Shown here piece by piece: positions 33,378-41,579 of a stretch of DNA of 64,000 nucleotides (position 1 is the first letter of the stretch; every line of letters begins with the position of its first letter). A model generated the notes under the pieces. It ran no database searches and had not been told where the DNA came from. It worked only from the letters and a program-made list of their open reading frames with translations. Made by a program: the position numbers and the translations under genes. This DNA comes from Synechococcus sp. CCY 0621 (lineage in GTDB: Bacteria; Cyanobacteriota; Cyanobacteriia; PCC-6307; Cyanobiaceae): the NCBI RefSeq assembly GCF_019038465.1, contig NZ_JAFKRH010000031.1:248001-312000 (forward strand). The letters run 5' to 3'.

Positions 33378-34559
33378 CTACAGCCGGTTGGGCAGCCCCT
33401 TGCAGCCCCCAGGCAGGGTGAGACGGGAACGGGCCCCGGACCAGGCCGCCAGGTAGGCGCGGTTGTCCGGATCCAGCTGCCGAACACCGCTGAGATTGAT
33501 ATTCTCCACCTGGGCTCCGGTGCCGATGCCGGCGGTGTGATCGGTCTCCATGTGGGCCTGATGCGGGGTGGCTAACAGAGCATCCCCGTAGAAGAACCTT
33601 GTGGCCTGAAGACAGGCCCCCTGGAGATTGGCGCCACCCAGGTTCACCGCGGCCAGGTTGGCTTCGGCCAGGTCGGCGCCGGAGAGATCGGCGCCGGAAA
33701 GATCGGCACCGTTGAAGTCGATGGCACGCAGGTCGGTGCCGGCAAGATCGGCTCCCCGCAGCATGCTCTGCAGGCGGATCACGGGAACCCCCTTCGGCCG
33801 GTCTTCCTCATAGCTGCCCTCGCCATCGAGGATGGCGCGCCCCAGCCGCTGGTCGCGGCGCAGGGGGGTGAGCAACCTGGCGTGGGAGAGGAAGCGCAGG
33901 ATCCTGGCCTTGCCATCGCCATCGATGCTGCTCAGCACGGCGGCCAGGCGCCCCTCCGCCAGCATTCGCTCCAGGGGCCAGTCCTCCAGCAGGCCCTCCT
34001 CGTCGCTGATCAGCTCCGAGATGCCGTGGATGAAGCTGTCGATCGTCTGGGCCTGGGTGATGCGGTTCTGCTGGGTGGTGAGCCGCTGATCCACCATCAC
34101 CTGACGCCAGGCGATCATCAGGGCCACCAGAGCCACCAGGATCGAGCCGACGGCCCCGATCACCCCCTCGCCGAAGGCCCCGATCGCTTCCCAGTCGCCG
34201 TTGCGGTAGATCGCCAGCAGCGAGTCGAACCAGCCGAGGGCCAGGGGAATCGACAGCAGGGCCAGCACCAGGGCCACGGTGGCCACCAGCCGAACGGTGG
34301 GGGGGTCTTCGAGGTGGCGGGCCAGGAGCTGCCAGAGCGGAGGCAGCAGTTGGCGCAGGGCCAGCACCACCGTCAGCAGGGACGCCGGCACGGCCAGCCA
34401 GGCCAGCCCCAGCAGCAGGGCCGCCAGCAGAACCAGAAGGGTGAGCAGCAACTGCAGGCCGGCCCCATGGCGCAGGCGCGTCCAGGGGCCACCCGCCCGC
34501 AGGGCCAGGGGCGGAGCAGCGGCGGCGGCCAGGGAGCGATCGTCCGGTTTGGTGCTCAT
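33378..34559 (-). CDS. Pentapeptide-repeat membrane protein
   Basis: A 393-residue protein with four hydrophobic stretches in the N-terminal half (about 34-70, 88-112, 132-150), a cytoplasmic middle, then a run of A(D/N)LXX pentapeptides (about 268-322: GADLAGTDLRAIDFNGADLS and onward). It ends in a short tail. Pentapeptide repeats form a right-handed beta-helix; the function of membrane-fused forms in cyanobacteria is unknown. It overlaps the upstream CAX gene by four bases (ATGA), so the two are translated from one mRNA. Confidence 0.87.
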   Translation of the reverse strand: MSTKPDDRSLAAAAAPPLALRAGGPWTRLRHGAGLQLLLTLLVLLAALLLGLAWLAVPASLLTVVLALRQLLPPLWQLLARHLEDPPTVRLVATVALVLALLSIPLALGWFDSLLAIYRNGDWEAIGAFGEGVIGAVGSILVALVALMIAWRQVMVDQRLTTQQNRITQAQTIDSFIHGISELISDEEGLLEDWPLERMLAEGRLAAVLSSIDGDGKARILRFLSHARLLTPLRRDQRLGRAILDGEGSYEEDRPKGVPVIRLQSMLRGADLAGTDLRAIDFNGADLSGADLSGADLAEANLAAVNLGGANLQGACLQATRFFYGDALLATPHQAHMETDHTAGIGTGAQVENINLSGVRQLDPDNRAYLAAWSGARSRLTLPGGCKGLPNRL

Positions 34560-35683
34560 GGCAGGGGGCTGCTCTGGAAGAAGAAACCAGCCGCGAGGAT
34601 GGCGTAGGCCGCCAGCAGCAGCACCCCCTCAAGCCAGTCGGAACGTCCGTCGAGGCTGACCAGATTGCTCACCAGAACGGCGGTGGCCACCGCCACCACC
34701 TCATAGACGTTGAAGCTGAGGTCGAGGGGATGGCCGAGCAGGGGGGCCACCAGCAGCAGCACCGGCACCACCAGCAGCCCCACCAGGAGGGTGGAGCCCA
34801 GGGCCACCGACACCGCCAGGTCCATCTTGTCCTTGCGGGCCATGCTCACGGCGGTGAGGTACTCGGCGGCACCGCCCAGCAGGGGCAGCAGCACCACACC
34901 GGTGAACAGGGCCGAGAGTCCGAGGGATTCGGTGACGGTCTCGACGACGCCCACGAACAGTTCGGAGGCATAGGCCAGGCCCACGGTGGCCGCCAGCAGC
35001 ACGGCGACCCAGGGGAGCAGGGGCGGCCGATGAGCAGCCTCGCCGCCATCGCCGGGGTCCTCTCCAGCCACGACCAGGTCAGCCTCGGCCACGGCGTAGA
35101 GGGTGCGATGGGTTTTCAGGGAAAACAGCAGCGTGAGGGCGTAGACGGCCAGCAGCACCCAGGCCACGAAGAGGGAAAAGGACTCGGCGGCACCCGCATC
35201 CAGCCCCCCGGCCTCGCCGCCCACCATCCCCCGCAGGCTCGGGATCAGAATCGCCAGGACCGCCAGGGTCATGGCCGAGCCATTGACCCGGGCCACCACC
35301 GGCTGGAAACGCTGCTCGCTGCGCCCAATGCCCCCGACCAGCATGGACAGACCCAGGGCCAGCAGCAGATTGGCCATGACCGTGCCGGTGATGCTGGCCT
35401 TGACGATGTCGACCAGGCCGGCCCGCAGGGCCGCCAGAGCAATGATCAGCTCGGTGGCGTTGCCGAACAGGGCATTGAGCAGGGCCCCGATCGAAGGTCC
35501 AAGGGTGAGGGACAACTCCTCGGTGGCGGTGCTCAGCAGGATCGCCAGGGGGATGATCGACAGGATCGAGGTGACGAAGACGACCCCGTCCCCCCAATGG
35601 AACCGGTCGGCGGCCGCTGCGACTGGCAGCATCGCCAGCAGGCCGATGGCGATGCGCAGACGGGCAGGCATGAAGCGGTGCAA
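34556..35683 (-). CDS. cax: Calcium/proton exchanger, CAX family
   Basis: A 375-residue antiporter with about 11 helices. The two inverted CaCA repeats each show the ion-binding motif: GNATELIIALAALRAG in the first half and GGAAEYLTAVSMARKDK in the second, joined by an acidic loop (about 205-220, EADLVVAGEDPGDGGE). It would move Ca2+ or Mn2+ out of the cytosol against protons. The start may be ATG 35683 or 35671. It is coupled to the pentapeptide gene downstream. Confidence 0.93.
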   Translation of the reverse strand: MHRFMPARLRIAIGLLAMLPVAAAADRFHWGDGVVFVTSILSIIPLAILLSTATEELSLTLGPSIGALLNALFGNATELIIALAALRAGLVDIVKASITGTVMANLLLALGLSMLVGGIGRSEQRFQPVVARVNGSAMTLAVLAILIPSLRGMVGGEAGGLDAGAAESFSLFVAWVLLAVYALTLLFSLKTHRTLYAVAEADLVVAGEDPGDGGEAAHRPPLLPWVAVLLAATVGLAYASELFVGVVETVTESLGLSALFTGVVLLPLLGGAAEYLTAVSMARKDKMDLAVSVALGSTLLVGLLVVPVLLLVAPLLGHPLDLSFNVYEVVAVATAVLVSNLVSLDGRSDWLEGVLLLAAYAILAAGFFFQSSPLP

Positions 35684-35824: not shown

Positions 35825-37132
35825 ATGTCCGCAGCAGCATTCTCCTGTTTGCCCGACTCCCTGCAAGCCTCCATGGCCCCAAAGAACCCACAGGCGATGA
35901 ACACTCCTGTCATGGGTCCTGATGCCGGGGATTTCGAACCCACCGGCAACACCAAAATCAAGCGGCGCAGACAGCGTTTGCCATCCATAAAAACGGTCGC
36001 GTCCATTCAGCAGGTTTTCACTCTCATTGCAATTGTCAATGGGCTCGTGCTGCTGTACCTGGTCATCGCGGCCATCCAGCTGCTGTTGGTGCCTGGCGCG
36101 CAATCGGCGGAGATTTATGTCTCGCTGATTCTGACGCTGTTGCTGGTCATTCTGGCGATCATTTCCTACCAGATCATCGCCAGACGGATTATTCTTCCGA
36201 TCGCTCGGCTTGTCCGCGAAGCCAGTGAGATTGAGAGCGGTGACAGGACAAGTCTGCTCACGATCCGGAGCAACGATGAGATATCAAAGTTGGCTCAGAC
36301 CTTCAACATGGTCCTGATCAAGATGCGGCAGGCACTGATCGCTGGAGAAGCCAGCAATCAGCAATTGCTGGAAGCTAATCGCCAGATTGAGGCCTCAATC
36401 AACTATGCGGGACTACTGCAACGTTCGATCCTTCCGGATCGGCAGCTTCAGGAAACCTTTGGCGACGATTACTTCATTCTCTGGCTGCCTCGGGACACCG
36501 TTGGTGGCGATTACTACATCTTCCACTCGGAAGGTGGCCACTGTCTCGCAGGCGTGGCCGACTGCGCCGGGCACGGGGTCTCAGGAGCCATGATGACGAT
36601 GCTGGCCAGGGCGGGGATTGATCGCTCCATCATGGAAGTGGGCATCTCGTCCCCAGCCGCGATTTTGGGTTGTACGGACGGCGCCATGCGCAACCTGTTG
36701 CATGGCGCCAGAATGAGCAAGTCGATCGCGACCAGCATGGACATTGGACTGGTACGCCTTGACTTTGAAGCCAGGACACTTAGATTTTCAGGTGCCAAGA
36801 TCAGTCTCTACTGGAGCGATGGGCAAACCATGCACATGCTTAGGGGAGACCATCGGGCTATCTGCGATCAGCGTGTCGGGTCCTACACGGATCACGATAT
36901 CCCGTTACTGCCGGACTGCACCTACTACTTGACCACCGACGGCCTGCTCGACCAATCTGGAGGTGACAATGGCTTTTCCCTCGGTACACACCAGTTCAAG
37001 GAATGGCTGATCCAGTTGGCCCGCCAGCCGCTCGAGTTGCAGCGTCAAGCTCTCGCCGATTCCCTTGAAAAGTTCCGAGGCCGTCACCCCCAGAGGGATG
37101 ACATCACGATCCTTTCCTTCCGTTTCGCTTAG
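35825..37132 (+). CDS. siaA: SiaA-like PP2C/SpoIIE phosphatase with HAMP
   Basis: A 435-residue membrane protein. Two helices (about 64-88 and 97-118) flank a loop of only about ten residues. A HAMP domain (about 119-170), a short coiled coil (EASNQQLLEANRQIEASINYA) and a SpoIIE/PP2C-type phosphatase domain (about 195-435) follow; metal-binding motifs are RDTVGGDYY, GVADCAGHGVSGAMM and DGLLDQSGG. In Pseudomonas, SiaA dephosphorylates SiaC, freeing it to activate SiaD. Pseudomonas SiaA carries a large extracytoplasmic sensor between the helices; it is missing here. It is the first of four tightly spaced genes in an AT-richer block. Confidence 0.85.
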   Translation: MSAAAFSCLPDSLQASMAPKNPQAMNTPVMGPDAGDFEPTGNTKIKRRRQRLPSIKTVASIQQVFTLIAIVNGLVLLYLVIAAIQLLLVPGAQSAEIYVSLILTLLLVILAIISYQIIARRIILPIARLVREASEIESGDRTSLLTIRSNDEISKLAQTFNMVLIKMRQALIAGEASNQQLLEANRQIEASINYAGLLQRSILPDRQLQETFGDDYFILWLPRDTVGGDYYIFHSEGGHCLAGVADCAGHGVSGAMMTMLARAGIDRSIMEVGISSPAAILGCTDGAMRNLLHGARMSKSIATSMDIGLVRLDFEARTLRFSGAKISLYWSDGQTMHMLRGDHRAICDQRVGSYTDHDIPLLPDCTYYLTTDGLLDQSGGDNGFSLGTHQFKEWLIQLARQPLELQRQALADSLEKFRGRHPQRDDITILSFRFA

Positions 37133-37143
37133 GGAGCCGCCTG

Positions 37144-37224
37144 ATGTTCCAGCCAAGCAAAAGCATGTCCTTGTCAGCACCGGTCACGACCAATCCAGTG
37201 TTTGCAATGGAGCTGCAGCGATGA
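37144..37224 (+). CDS. Possible 26-codon leader frame between siaA and siaB
   Basis: ATG 37144 has a good ribosome site (AGGGAG seven bases ahead) just after the siaA stop. The frame encodes MFQPSKSMSLSAPVTTNPVF plus six residues and stops in an ATGA overlap with the siaB start at 37221. The layout suggests translational coupling. It could be a real micropeptide, a leader, or the remains of a longer siaB N-terminus in another frame. Confidence 0.35.
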   Translation: MFQPSKSMSLSAPVTTNPVFAMELQR

Positions 37225-37769
37225 CCATCAGCACCACCAGCCTGATGTCGCTGAGGGAGTACTTCAGCAACCAGCAAATTCTCATCTGTTTCAATGGACC
37301 GATCTCCACGAACCTGATCGGCGAGATCGGATCAGCCCTCAAGGAACATATTGAATCCAACCATGCTCCCGAACTGGAGGTGATGGATGTCTTCAGTGTC
37401 TACATCGAGATGAGTCAGAATATCAGGAACTATGCAACCAGCCACGGCTTCAGCGACTCCGACTCCTCAGCCACGGTCGTCATTGCGGCCGCCGAGGCTG
37501 GCCATTACGCCGTGTGTGCAGGTAACCTCGTGGAGATGGGGGATGGTCAGGCTCTACTGGAACGGATCCACGAACTCGCGGCCTGCGACAAGGCCCAGCT
37601 GAAGCTGCTTTACAAACAGCAGTTGCGTCAGCCCCACACCCAGACTCCCGGACAGGGCGCCGGCCTTGGACTCATTGAAATCGCCAGGCGCTCGAGCCAA
37701 CCCATGGAGGCCTCCCTTGATCCCTTGGAGCCCGGTCGAGCCTTCTTCAGCCTTCGGGCCATCATCTGA
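37221..37769 (+). CDS. siaB: SiaB-like HATPase-type protein kinase (DUF6272)
   Basis: A 182-residue cytoplasmic protein from ATG 37221, with GGAG eight bases ahead. It resembles anti-sigma-factor-type kinases: an N-box-like VYIEMSQNIRNYA and a glycine-rich ATP lid GQGAGLGLIEIARRSSQP. SiaB phosphorylates SiaC on a threonine, opposing SiaA. The SiaB family is variable in sequence, so the call rests on fold motifs, size and position between a SiaA-like phosphatase and a DUF1987 gene. Confidence 0.82.
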   Translation: MTISTTSLMSLREYFSNQQILICFNGPISTNLIGEIGSALKEHIESNHAPELEVMDVFSVYIEMSQNIRNYATSHGFSDSDSSATVVIAAAEAGHYAVCAGNLVEMGDGQALLERIHELAACDKAQLKLLYKQQLRQPHTQTPGQGAGLGLIEIARRSSQPMEASLDPLEPGRAFFSLRAII

Positions 37770-37773
37770 TCCC

Positions 37774-38169
37774 ATGAGCAGCAGCGAAGAACTCAATCTC
37801 TCTGTGCCAGGCTCCCAATCAAGCCCGTCGATCAGGGCCGATTGGAAAGCGGGCGTCGTGGTCATGAGCGGCGAGTCCTACCCAGAGAATTCGTTTGAGC
37901 TGTACGACCAGTTGATTCAGTGGATTGACTCCTATCTGTCCAGCGCCGAGCACGCCCTGACGCTTGAGTTGCACCTCAATTATCTCAATACCAGCAGTAT
38001 TAGGTTCATGATCGATATCTTTGATTCACTCCAGACAGCCTTTGAGAATGGCAAGGAAGTTTTGGTGCAATGGATGTTTGATGATAGAAACCCTCGTTCA
38101 GCCGAACTGGGTTCCGAATTCAAGGAAGACTATACTTTTCCTTTCTTGATTCTCTCTATCAACGCCTGA
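37774..38169 (+). CDS. siaC: SiaC-like phosphoprotein (DUF1987)
   Basis: A 131-residue protein of the DUF1987 family. The diagnostic MSGESYPENSFELYDQL is at about 31-47, followed by ELHLNYLNTSSIRFMIDIFD, where Thr73 of NTSS corresponds to the phosphorylated threonine of SiaC (Thr68 in P. aeruginosa). Unphosphorylated SiaC binds and activates the diguanylate cyclase SiaD. It starts four bases after siaB and ends one base before siaD. Confidence 0.9.
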   Translation: MSSSEELNLSVPGSQSSPSIRADWKAGVVVMSGESYPENSFELYDQLIQWIDSYLSSAEHALTLELHLNYLNTSSIRFMIDIFDSLQTAFENGKEVLVQWMFDDRNPRSAELGSEFKEDYTFPFLILSINA

Positions 38170-38170
38170 C

Positions 38171-39016
38171 ATGCTGGAACCCTCCTATCCAAAATCCGAT
38201 GATCAATTGGAGAAGGAGGTCATGGCAATTCTTGCTGATGATCGCTATGAGGACGATCCTGTACGTCATCTGTTAGCTCGCCTATGGAACCGGATTGAAG
38301 AGCAAGTGGATCGCCTCGAAAGGGTAGCTGATATTTCCGATCTTTACCAGTCGCATGTACTGGAAAGCAACCGTAGTCTGACAAATCGGTACGAGAAGCA
38401 GCTACGGCAGATCAAGCGGGTTGTTCGTATTTCCGATCTTTATCAAGCCTCCTTGAAAGAATTGAACCTCTCGCTTTTTGAGGCCTCCACCCATGATGCA
38501 CTGACGGGGATTTCCAACCGACGCTTCATGGCAGAGCGCTGTCTTGAGGAAGATCAGCGGGCCGCCAGGCATGGCTCCACCTATTCGATGATCATTCTGG
38601 ATGTGGATCACTTTAAGCTGGTCAATGACGAGTATGGCCATGCCACTGGGGATCTGATGTTGGTTGATTTCGTCAAAGCCCTCTCCAACAGCCTTCGTCA
38701 CTATGACATCATCGCTCGATGGGGAGGAGAAGAATTCATGGCTCTTCTGATTGATGCCGATCTTTCAACAGCAGAACTCGTCGCTAAACGGATGTTGGCC
38801 AACATTCGCGAGATGCGAGTGTCCATCGATGACATGGAACTGAACATCACGGCAAGTTTGGGTCTGACAGAACACAAGCCCGATGAGAACTATGACGCCA
38901 CTTTTCGTCGTGCTGACAAGGCCCTGCTCATGGCAAAGAACTCAGGACGTGACCGCTTGGTGGTGATTGATCCGAACTATCCTCTCAGCCATCGTGAAAT
39001 CAGCACACTGGTTTGA
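38171..39016 (+). CDS. siaD: SiaD-like diguanylate cyclase
   Basis: A 281-residue cytoplasmic cyclase. The N-terminal 100 residues are coiled-coil-like and contain two copies of a RVxxISDLYQ motif (51-60 and 83-92, period 32). The GGDEF domain has DALTGISNRR, DVDHFKLVNDEYGH and the active site GGEEF at 185-189. An inhibitory RxxD site (RHYD, 176-179) lies exactly five residues ahead. It makes c-di-GMP and would be activated by SiaC. It is the last gene of the operon, with one base separating it from siaC. Confidence 0.9.
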   Translation: MLEPSYPKSDDQLEKEVMAILADDRYEDDPVRHLLARLWNRIEEQVDRLERVADISDLYQSHVLESNRSLTNRYEKQLRQIKRVVRISDLYQASLKELNLSLFEASTHDALTGISNRRFMAERCLEEDQRAARHGSTYSMIILDVDHFKLVNDEYGHATGDLMLVDFVKALSNSLRHYDIIARWGGEEFMALLIDADLSTAELVAKRMLANIREMRVSIDDMELNITASLGLTEHKPDENYDATFRRADKALLMAKNSGRDRLVVIDPNYPLSHREISTLV

Positions 39017-39139: not shown

Positions 39140-41497
39140 TCAGCTGTCGGGTTTGGCCAGCGGCAGCAGGCACTTGTCGGAATCGCAGCCAGCGGGGCCG
39201 GCCTCAATCAGCTCACCCCCGTCATACTTCTGGAGGGCCAGGAAGAAATCCCCACACTGGCGGCGCTGCTCCACCTCAAGGACCATGCGGTGATAGGTGG
39301 CTTGGTCGATCGGCTCGAACGGCAATCTGGGGAAGGTGGCATTGGCATCGAAGCGGGCCAGCAGGGCGGCGGAAATGTATCCCTCACCCTGCTCAATGGC
39401 CTGGTGAATCGCGGCGGCCAAAGCCTCGATTTCATGCTCGCGGAACTCCACCGTGGCCGAGGTGTTGTGGGTGGTGAAATGACGTTGCACCTGCATGTAG
39501 AAATCGAACTGGGCCAGGGCCGAGAAGTTGTTGATCTCCACCTGATCAGCGCCAGGCAGGTTGGCCCAGCTCACCTCGGTGGGGATCTCCACCAACCACT
39601 CGGTGCAGCGCGGGTCGAAGGGGTCATTCAGCAGGCGGCCCTGCTCGTCCTTGTCCGACTGGGAGGGAACGATCGCGTAGCCATAGTCCATGCAGGCCAG
39701 GGCCACCGGATCGTTCTTGCGGAAGGTGATGCGGCGGATGAAGCGCTGGGCCTTGGGGGGATGCCAGCCGGGGCTGGCGCCGGTGAGCAGGCTCTTGGTG
39801 CCCGCCGGTTGGACGGTGGTGCAGCGGTTGGGACGGCGCATGCCGTGCCGATCGCAGTAGTCCCAAACCGCGTCATGGACACACTGCTTCCAGCGCGACA
39901 GGTAGGCCGCTTCCTCGGCCCGGAAGGCACGACCCTCCTCGGAGTCGGGCCGGCCGGCTTCCCACCACTGCAACCAGGGGGTGCCGAAGGCATGGACGAA
40001 GAAATCGAACAGGCCGGTGAAGCTGACACCCACGATCGGATCCCAGGCCCGGCTCTGGCGGTAGCGCTCAACCTCGAAGCGGTGGTTCAGCAGGCAGGCC
40101 ACCGCCAGACCACCGGCCTTGAAGGCGTCGGCCTGGGCCTGGTGGTCGGCCGGGTCGATCCGGTTGAGGTGGATCTCGGCCAGGTTGCAGTGGAAATCGG
40201 CGCCGAGGATCTCACCGCAGGGGTTGAGTCCGTAGCGGCTGAGCCGGTGCTCGAGCTCTGCGTCGCTGATCTGCGGATGATGCAGCTGCAGCCAGCGGCC
40301 GGCCTCCTCCTTGCCCTGGTCGCAGTAGATGCCGATGAACTCGGTGCGCAGCTGGGGGGTGGTGAGCAGGTCGGCATTGGAGCGGGCGATCGCCTCGGGG
40401 GCGAACTGGATGGCGCCCTCCCCCGACTGGAACTGCTTGTTGACCGCTTCCAGCACCACCTCGCGGCTGGGGCGAACGTGAAACACCCGGGTGTGGTTGG
40501 CCATGCGCAGGGCATCGCGCTCGGGATCAATGCGCCAGTTGCCCTGGTCGTCCTGCTGCCAAAGGTTCTCCTTGGCACCGAGAGCGGAATCGTCATCGGC
40601 GCAGAACTGGCGCATGCCGGCGCTGCGGCGGATGTTGCCGGCCACGATCGTCACCGCCGCCTCATCGATCAGCAGGCAGCACTCCACCGAGGTGAGCTGG
40701 CGGCCCCGGGCCTTGTTGAGGATCTGGGCGACGCGGCCATAGAGGTCCCTCAACTTGACGGGATTGGCCATGCCGCCGAAGCCCTTGAGGGTTTCGCCCA
40801 CGGGCCGCACATCGGAGAGATCCACCGTCACGTGGACGGGGCCGTCGAAACGCTCATCGCTGCAGAGGTTGAGCAGCAGCCGGTAGCTCTCCACCCAGCC
40901 GGCACGGGTGTCACCCACTCGGACGCTGACCTGCTGACCTTCGATCGTGTGGGTGGTCTGCTGCTGGCGGGAGCCGATCGGCGTCACGCCGATGTCGGAG
41001 ACCCCATCGATGACGAGGGTGTTGCGGACCTTCGGCAGTCGGCTGATCAGATGGGGCTCGATGATGGCGCCGGTGCCACAGCCCATCATCGCCAGGTCCA
41101 TCATCAGGGCGAAGGCTTCCCAGTCCACCAGGTTGGTGGAGGTGCAGTTGTAGGCACCGGAAAAGTTCTCGGCTTGCTCGATCCACTCGGTGCCGCCGAT
41201 CCAGAGCCAGCGTCCGGAGGGGAGCGCCATCTGGTGGCGCTGCATGCGCCGGATCAGCTCCACCTCCTCGGGAGCCAGGGAACCCAGCACCCGCAGGCCC
41301 TCGAGGTTGCGCTCAGCCACCTCATGCCAGCTCTCCCTGCCGCCGCTTGGGGTCTTGCGGCTGTAGGTGCGATAGAAGACCGGATAGGCCGCCGGGGCGG
41401 TGAGCGGGAAATCGACCACCGGCGTGAGGGTGTCGTCGCTTGCCGATGACGTCGCCGCCGTGGCGGGGGTGGCTGGACGGGCGGCGGACAGGGTCAC
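39140..41497 (-). CDS. nrdJ: Adenosylcobalamin-dependent ribonucleotide reductase (class II)
   Basis: Makes deoxynucleotides using a B12-derived radical, oxygen-independent. It has 785 residues from GTG 41497 (MTLSAARPATPATAA); the frame is open to 41566. Signatures are FYRTYSRKTPSGGRESW, the N-terminal redox Cys in AYNCTSTNL, the MMGCGTGAI loop, NPCGEILG with the thiyl Cys at 427, QPAGTKSLLTGASPGWHPP and the C-terminal CDSDKC pair. The form is the monomeric triphosphate reductase of picocyanobacteria. No intein interrupts it. It converges with the sia operon. An inverted repeat lies 57 bases upstream of the start. Confidence 0.95.
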   Translation of the reverse strand: MTLSAARPATPATAATSSASDDTLTPVVDFPLTAPAAYPVFYRTYSRKTPSGGRESWHEVAERNLEGLRVLGSLAPEEVELIRRMQRHQMALPSGRWLWIGGTEWIEQAENFSGAYNCTSTNLVDWEAFALMMDLAMMGCGTGAIIEPHLISRLPKVRNTLVIDGVSDIGVTPIGSRQQQTTHTIEGQQVSVRVGDTRAGWVESYRLLLNLCSDERFDGPVHVTVDLSDVRPVGETLKGFGGMANPVKLRDLYGRVAQILNKARGRQLTSVECCLLIDEAAVTIVAGNIRRSAGMRQFCADDDSALGAKENLWQQDDQGNWRIDPERDALRMANHTRVFHVRPSREVVLEAVNKQFQSGEGAIQFAPEAIARSNADLLTTPQLRTEFIGIYCDQGKEEAGRWLQLHHPQISDAELEHRLSRYGLNPCGEILGADFHCNLAEIHLNRIDPADHQAQADAFKAGGLAVACLLNHRFEVERYRQSRAWDPIVGVSFTGLFDFFVHAFGTPWLQWWEAGRPDSEEGRAFRAEEAAYLSRWKQCVHDAVWDYCDRHGMRRPNRCTTVQPAGTKSLLTGASPGWHPPKAQRFIRRITFRKNDPVALACMDYGYAIVPSQSDKDEQGRLLNDPFDPRCTEWLVEIPTEVSWANLPGADQVEINNFSALAQFDFYMQVQRHFTTHNTSATVEFREHEIEALAAAIHQAIEQGEGYISAALLARFDANATFPRLPFEPIDQATYHRMVLEVEQRRQCGDFFLALQKYDGGELIEAGPAGCDSDKCLLPLAKPDS

Positions 41498-41553
41498 GGT
41501 GGGTATGGCCAGTGCGTGCTGGAAACCATAACGCCACCCGTGGGGTCTGCAAC

Positions 41554-41579
41554 GGCACCATGGCACCAGCCACGGTGCC
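41554..41579. promoter_or_regulatory. Inverted repeat upstream of nrdJ
   Basis: GGCACCATGG and its near-complement CCACGGTGCC, separated by six bases, lie 57 bases upstream of the nrdJ GTG and 64 bases upstream of the divergent methyltransferase. It might be an operator or a 5'-leader hairpin; it does not resemble a B12 riboswitch or an NrdR box. Confidence 0.3.

Follow-up and report, generated by a model that had tools for sequence, protein, structure and literature searches.

Gene organization of the sia locus

In the 64,000-nucleotide stretch of Synechococcus sp. CCY 0621 DNA analysed here (the window, taken from contig NZ_JAFKRH010000031.1 of a 3.23 Mb genome in 101 contigs), the region 35825-39016 carries siaA, a 26-codon open reading frame (ORF26), siaB, siaC and siaD, all on the forward strand (Table 1). 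The host of this cluster is a picocyanobacterium, and the nearest named loci are found in strains of Cyanobium, Synechococcus and Aphanothece. Coordinates and Pfam matches agree with the original prediction for this region, which had read it as four genes of one orientation encoding a PP2C phosphatase, a HATPase-like kinase, a DUF1987 phosphoprotein and a GGDEF cyclase with an RxxD site, spaced -4 to +4 bases apart from ORF26 onward; the spacings are -4 (ORF26/siaB), +4 (siaB/siaC) and +1 (siaC/siaD). The further claim that this is a complete SiaABCD switch of cyclic di-GMP (c-di-GMP) in a picocyanobacterium also stood, as an orthologous set in which SiaA is a variant.

Table 1. Features of the sia locus and its flanks (window coordinates).
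Feature	Coordinates	Strand	Description
siaA	35825..37132	+	435-codon frame; PP2C (SpoIIE-type) phosphatase with two-helix membrane hairpin and HAMP, without outside sensor domain
SiaA membrane hairpin	35978..36238	+	two helices with short connecting loop; from alignment of 25 Cyanobiaceae SiaA and model helices
ORF26	37144..37224	+	26 codons, GGGAG upstream; stop overlaps siaB start (ATGA)
siaB	37221..37769	+	SiaC threonine kinase (DUF6272), by homology
siaC	37774..38169	+	DUF1987 phosphoprotein, Thr73 in NTSS
siaD	38171..39016	+	diguanylate cyclase, GGDEF family
nrdJ	39140..41566	-	presumed class II ribonucleotide reductase-like; conserved downstream neighbour marking the site
cax	34556..35683	-	presumed Ca2+/H+ antiporter-like; other flank of the site in the main clade

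An assembly artefact or contamination is ruled out, as the genes lie inside a contig of 418,287 bases and have the same flanks in relatives. Pseudogenes are ruled out as well by the intact frames and by purifying selection: the ratio of nonsynonymous to synonymous divergence (dN/dS) is 0.02-0.19 in the 21 of 24 comparisons (four genes against six relatives) that gave a finite value, synonymous divergence (dS) being saturated in the other three (siaD against L062 and L066, siaC against L067). Our terminator scan found no terminator, against a mean of 2.8 in shuffled sequences, while promoter-like matches numbered 5 against 2.0, none of them upstream of siaA.

Conservation of the switch proteins

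All four products exceed the Pfam cut-offs, with SpoIIE (69.3 bits) and HAMP (43.1 bits) in SiaA, DUF6272 (PF19788, 130 bits) in SiaB, SiaC/DUF1987 (PF09345, 123.2 bits) in SiaC and GGDEF (138.4 bits) in SiaD. SiaB, SiaC and SiaD also pass the respective NCBIfam equivalog models NF038264 (250.9 bits, cut-off 225), NF038265 (186 bits, cut-off 150) and NF038266 (305.1 bits, cut-off 290), and profile searches thus left the second and third genes in the SiaB and SiaC families to which they had first been assigned. Matches to known structures follow the same pattern: SiaB matches 6kko chain A (E=5.2e-58), SiaC matches 6k4f and 6kko/6kkp/7e6g (E about 1e-38), and SiaD matches 7e6g chain A along residues 12-265 (E=1e-70), while the match of SiaA to 6k4e (E=3e-88) covers residues 167-434, that is, the phosphatase part only.

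The residues on which the switch depends in Pseudomonas aeruginosa can be located in each protein. SiaB Glu63 aligns with Glu61 of P. aeruginosa, the predicted catalytic residue (PMC7647112), and this glutamate is kept in 28 of the 29 Cyanobiaceae sequences in our alignment. The threonine of the NTSS motif of SiaC (Thr73) corresponds to Thr68 of P. aeruginosa, and NTSS is found in all 29 sequences. In SiaD, the stalk motifs S56/Q60 and S88/Q92, both intact in the window, correspond to S50/Q54 and S82/Q86, and the product-inhibition site R176-x-x-D179 precedes a GGEEF motif starting at residue 185; RxxD-x5-GGEEF is likewise present in 29 of 29. The roles given to the SiaC threonine, the stalk motifs and RxxD are those reported in P. 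aeruginosa work (PMC8457831). The earlier calls of Thr73, NTSS and RxxD were therefore accurate. Finally, the metal-binding aspartates of the PP2C fold (GDYY, DCAGHG, TTDG and RDD positions) are present in SiaA and invariant in 25 of 25 Cyanobiaceae sequences.

Anatomy and residues can be read from these genes, and the biochemistry that follows is carried over from P. aeruginosa (PMC8457831, PMC7647112, PMC12834913). Unphosphorylated SiaC would bind the two stalk motifs of SiaD and hold it as an active dimer making c-di-GMP. Phosphorylation of SiaC on Thr73 by SiaB would turn SiaD off, removal of that phosphate by SiaA would turn it on again, and c-di-GMP would limit SiaD through RxxD.

As a side observation, the window SiaB and SiaC score weakly (14.5 and 18.8 bits, cut-off 100) against profiles of the slr1658/slr1659 superfamily, of whose regulators the pair may be distant cousins.

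A compact SiaA

One feature of the locus that the original prediction did not contain is the absence of the outside sensor domain from SiaA. The Cyanobiaceae siaA frames span 385-465 codons, and the domain is missing from all 29 with a readable N-terminus (29 of 32 genomes, leaving out a partial copy in G198, one running off its contig in G180 and a broken one in G200). By hydropathy scan, the two helices of Cyanobiaceae SiaA lie 13-25 residues apart; in L114 the scan shows one helix at the threshold used, while the aligned sequence has the hairpin. Ile10, Gln11, Phe14 and Asn21 are invariant across 25 aligned Cyanobiaceae sequences, the glutamine and asparagine lying in or next to helix 1. 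An AlphaFold2 model of SiaA from position 35978 (mean predicted local distance difference test score 83.4, predicted template modelling score 0.66) has helices at residues 10-37 and 44-87, followed by a HAMP region that contains a long helix and, after it, the phosphatase part. As for the true start of the gene, in-frame stops occur just before the position of TTG 35849 (codon 9) in 8 of 14 main-clade sequences, a set of 14 that includes the window, and ATG 35825 is therefore probably not the start of siaA, for which TTG 35849, ATG 35873 or ATG 35897 are more likely candidates.

The scan gave quite different values outside the Cyanobiaceae, where the gap between helices is 264-291 residues in eight loci (L072-L076, L078, L136, L143), about 255 in L135 and L138, and 128-175 in L132-L134, L140 and L142; L137, L139 and L144, with one helix or none, were left out of this comparison. 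In the nearest sister, L141, the scan finds one helix; its partner is encoded just upstream in a different frame, together with a portion of the outside domain, so this copy is either broken or misread. Three of the five non-Cyanobiaceae sequences scanned for Cache-type domains gave hints below the cut-off of 45 bits (L136, 42.2; L075, 29.4; L074, 19.9), and the other two, L072 and L132, gave none.

Distribution and genomic site

The SiaC family (PF09345) occurs in 32 of 400 Cyanobiaceae genomes, our own included, and in 6 of 59 genera. Among 386 genomes sampled across the phylum there are six matches, of which four are strong (our genome and three congeners) and two, outside the family, weak. 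Despite this patchiness the site is strikingly constant. The gene downstream, which we take from its sequence to be nrdJ, directly follows siaD in 28 of the 32 siaC-bearing genomes (27 of the 30 loci L001 and L027-L055, plus L114, not L113), also between genomes whose proteins are just 45-65% alike; the same nrdJ site is found in five genera, and the order of the sia genes is kept in relatives. The upstream neighbour, presumably cax, is common to the main clade and G062.

When twenty congeners without siaC were searched, nrdJ was present in 18 of them, at 21 places. In four of these siaC-less loci (L085, L087, L088, L089) 70-190 bases, holding no trace of sia, separate cax from nrdJ. In L100 the two are about 1.2 kb apart, again with no sia match, and this locus was not counted as an empty site; the remaining siaC-less loci show neither arrangement, several being contig ends. 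Remnants also occur: in G286 (L082/L117) a piece of siaD, residues 92-280 (the cyclase half), is left beside nrdJ, and in G200 (L111) siaA and siaC are broken. The shared nrdJ site, the sia-less nrdJ-cax loci and these two remnants are best fitted by a single arrival beside nrdJ before several genera split, followed by repeated loss, which would be the simplest account.

Origin of the module

A tree of the SiaA PP2C part, SiaB and SiaC from 46 sequences (LG+G4, ultrafast bootstrap, Firmicutes as root) nests the Cyanobiaceae proteins among proteobacterial ones. They form a single clade (support 92), with G819, from the same class as Verticiella, next to it and with Verticiella, Aromatoleum and Azoarcus close by. 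A single acquisition is most likely, with Proteobacteria as the source and an ancestor of several Cyanobiaceae genera as the recipient. The class of Verticiella has SiaC in only 10 of 369 genomes, that of Verticiella included, so that sampling of the donor group is too thin for a donor to be named. A search of 72,556 plasmid records for siaB returned 15, all from proteobacterial genera and all below 60% identity. The nrdJ tree (26 sia-bearing and 15 siaC-less loci), which has some weak nodes, recovers most groups of the sia tree, with g45, g23, the main clade and G189/G150 appearing in both.

The original prediction had also suggested acquisition, and had taken low GC as its sign. A foreign origin is indeed favoured by the tree and the patchy distribution. 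The sign itself did not hold, given the site shared by five genera and a composition that tracks that of nrdJ, as shown below.

Base composition and synonymous divergence

The four sia genes have a GC content of 0.49-0.58 and a GC content at third codon positions (GC3) of 0.55-0.73, compared with 0.66-0.71 and 0.86-0.91 for the six neighbours measured, and the median GC3 of the window, which serves as the comparison here, is 0.853 over 50 coding-like frames picked by script. The locus is thus AT-richer than its surroundings and has fewer GC-ending codons, just as first noted. This property is shared with its relatives: wherever nrdJ is complete, in 25 of 25 loci, all four sia genes have a lower GC3 than it (by 0.17 on average, range 0.09-0.30), and across these loci sia GC3 correlates with nrdJ GC3 (Spearman 0.64, n=25, relatedness not corrected). 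Set against partial nrdJ stretches, siaA or siaB is sometimes not below (L028, L040, L048, L049, L051). In the nearest proteobacterial relatives (L072-L074, L136, L141), sia GC3 is 0.75-0.94.

Low GC3 is also found in other c-di-GMP genes of the genome, which has 14 GGDEF, 7 EAL and 6 PilZ matches, one of the EAL matches being a fragment that contains a stop. Four of 11 other GGDEF genes measured, out of 13, have a GC3 at or below 0.70 (0.53-0.70), and of the four PilZ genes in the right frame (L021 and L025 excluded) three lie at 0.57-0.68 and one at 0.84. Genes of patchy distribution tend, in general, to be AT-richer than core genes. The 3' end of nrdJ, which faces the sia genes, shows a local GC3 gradient: in all 16 sia-bearing loci compared, GC3 drops between the penultimate and the last 100 codons (39140-39440), and among 15 siaC-less loci the last 100 are lower in 9, equal in 2 and higher in 4.

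Even close relatives differ strongly at the synonymous sites of their sia genes, a further point against low GC as a sign of acquisition. Leaving out three saturated values, sia dS exceeds the dS of nrdJ, cax and prfC from the same genome pairs by a factor of 1.1 to 8.6, with the proteins well kept.

An old module or a recent arrival?

We consider it highly probable that these genes form an orthologous partner-switching module of the SiaABCD type, long established in the Cyanobiaceae and with a compact SiaA, which was acquired once and then lost repeatedly. A recent horizontal acquisition from an AT-richer donor, whose composition the genes would still carry, could account for the distance of their GC3 from the window median, for a distribution limited to 32 of 400 genomes, and for synonymous divergence above that of the flanks, but it appears very improbable to us in view of the common site in five genera, of a GC3 gap that recurs in 25 of 25 loci with a composition tracking the host, and of the GC-rich nearest sampled outgroups. 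Moreover, the end of nrdJ is AT-shifted in all sia-bearing loci as against 9 of 15 siaC-less ones, and other c-di-GMP genes of the genome are similarly low in GC3. Because of the shared site, the GC3 tracking, the outgroups and these low-GC3 genes, low GC is an enduring trait of the locus, and of some of the other c-di-GMP genes, rather than the trace of a recent import, and the locus provides a worked example of why low GC alone does not amount to recent gene transfer. A spread of the module within Cyanobiaceae by homologous recombination through the shared flanks, instead of descent and loss, seems unlikely, although the nrdJ flank common to 28 of 32 genomes would offer the means, the elevated dS relative to nrdJ, cax and prfC would be expected, and G121 and G062 are placed differently in the two trees. 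The groups g45, g23, the main clade and G189/G150 nonetheless recur in both trees, and elevated dS would also be expected of genes less bound to GC-ending codons.

Several observations weigh against an intact, vertically kept SiaABCD module. The SiaB of L107 (G195) has a lysine at the glutamate position, with the rest of the motif kept, which may be a sequencing error or an inactive kinase. One SiaD stalk motif is degenerate in 6 of 29 sequences (L104, L108, L110, L112, L114, L115), for which one would expect dimers with two bound SiaC rather than four. SiaA reaches 405.6 bits with its equivalog model NF038263, below the cut-off of 700, and matches only positions 290-657 of 658, so that by its sequence it is best called a variant and not a SiaA equivalog, a class of full-length proteins with the outside sensor domain. 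Four of the 32 genomes (G148, G140, G180, G054) have no adjoining nrdJ, prfC still being near in G054. The Cyanobiaceae clade has a support of 92, some of its inner nodes are weak, and re-rooting may shift support labels by one node. The discordant placement of G121 and G062 and the splitting of genus g9 in both trees may reflect some exchange between lineages, and the higher synonymous divergence of the sia genes than of their flanks could also mean allele exchange.

What does SiaA sense?

In P. aeruginosa, the inputs reported for SiaA are surfactant, carbon availability and membrane perturbation on cooling (PMC7647112, PMC12834913). The cooling response was abolished when the first 336 residues of SiaA were replaced by those of CusS, and polar residues in the first helix have been likened to the sunken-buoy motif of DesK (PMC12834913). 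Since only a membrane hairpin precedes HAMP and the PP2C part in the Cyanobiaceae protein, its input is most likely the membrane state or something inside the cell rather than an outside ligand. More specifically, and only tentatively, we propose that it is a minimal membrane sensor, in which the hairpin would read membrane state (cold, fluidity, surfactant) and, via HAMP, set the PP2C part and with it turn the cyclase on. If this is true, sensing resides in the membrane helices alone, where work in Pseudomonas has narrowed it no further than the first 336 residues. SiaA might instead be a constant phosphatase without true input, regulation then passing through protein amounts or the ATP supply of SiaB. 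The loss of the outside domain would suit such a protein, yet we find the idea rather doubtful, as the hairpin and HAMP are kept and polar residues in or beside helix 1 are invariant across 25 sequences, which a plain anchor would not need.

On the output side, MshEN and ComFB, families that include known cyanobacterial c-di-GMP receptors, gave no match in the genome, PilZ being the only receptor family found among those searched. Genes upstream of sia in other genera, read by eye with no family search, include nothing that points to an output gene. Control of attachment or aggregation, which the original prediction had suggested, is a guess by analogy.

ORF26

An ATG frame of 26-32 codons resembling ORF26, and ending in the TGA of the siaB start (ATGA), is found in 14 of 15 main-clade genomes; in the fifteenth, L051 (longer copy L061), a 25-codon frame ends one codon earlier, still touching the siaB start. 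Similar frames in the g23 genomes L029 (35 codons) and L114 (32 codons) encode unrelated peptides; in other genera siaA and siaB overlap directly, are set apart by a short gap, or have no such frame between them. A conserved peptide was rejected, the sequences differing almost entirely between subclades with only the frame kept. Because simulation of the window gap yields such a frame by chance in 6.5% of cases, and because the frame recurs with differing lengths, its presence suggests that it is kept rather than a chance occurrence, recurrence being counted here among related sequences. Translational coupling is the likeliest role, and ORF26, siaB, siaC and siaD are probably translated as a coupled unit.

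Comparison with known systems

Among the literature matches listed, none dealt with a SiaABCD module in cyanobacteria; the system is mentioned elsewhere as a merger of phosphatase-kinase and c-di-GMP systems (PMC9239204). The locus described here shows that a c-di-GMP switch of the kind known from Proteobacteria has become established in picocyanobacteria, and because the switch is kept with the outside domain shed, one can ask of it directly whether sensing needs more than membrane helices.

Regulators of the slr1658/slr1659 superfamily have a weak profile similarity to SiaB and SiaC, which remain far below the cut-off and are not members. The Azospirillum plasmids NC_013857 and NZ_CP029831 (L132, L133) carry PP2C, SiaB, SiaC and cyclase genes in one run, but with a histidine kinase gene between siaC and the cyclase gene, and with a longer SiaA that has about 130-140 residues between its helices; their proteins are 37-43% identical to those of the window. 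The SiaABCD system of P. aeruginosa (PA0172-PA0169) has the four genes in the same order and shares with the window the SiaB, SiaC and SiaD equivalogs as well as the NTSS threonine, the stalk Ser/Gln pairs, RxxD, GGEEF, the SiaB glutamate and the PP2C aspartates. The window differs from it in its SiaA, a 435-codon frame without the outside domain as compared with a model of 658 positions, in the presence of ORF26 between siaA and siaB, in its site beside nrdJ, and in its cyanobacterial host.

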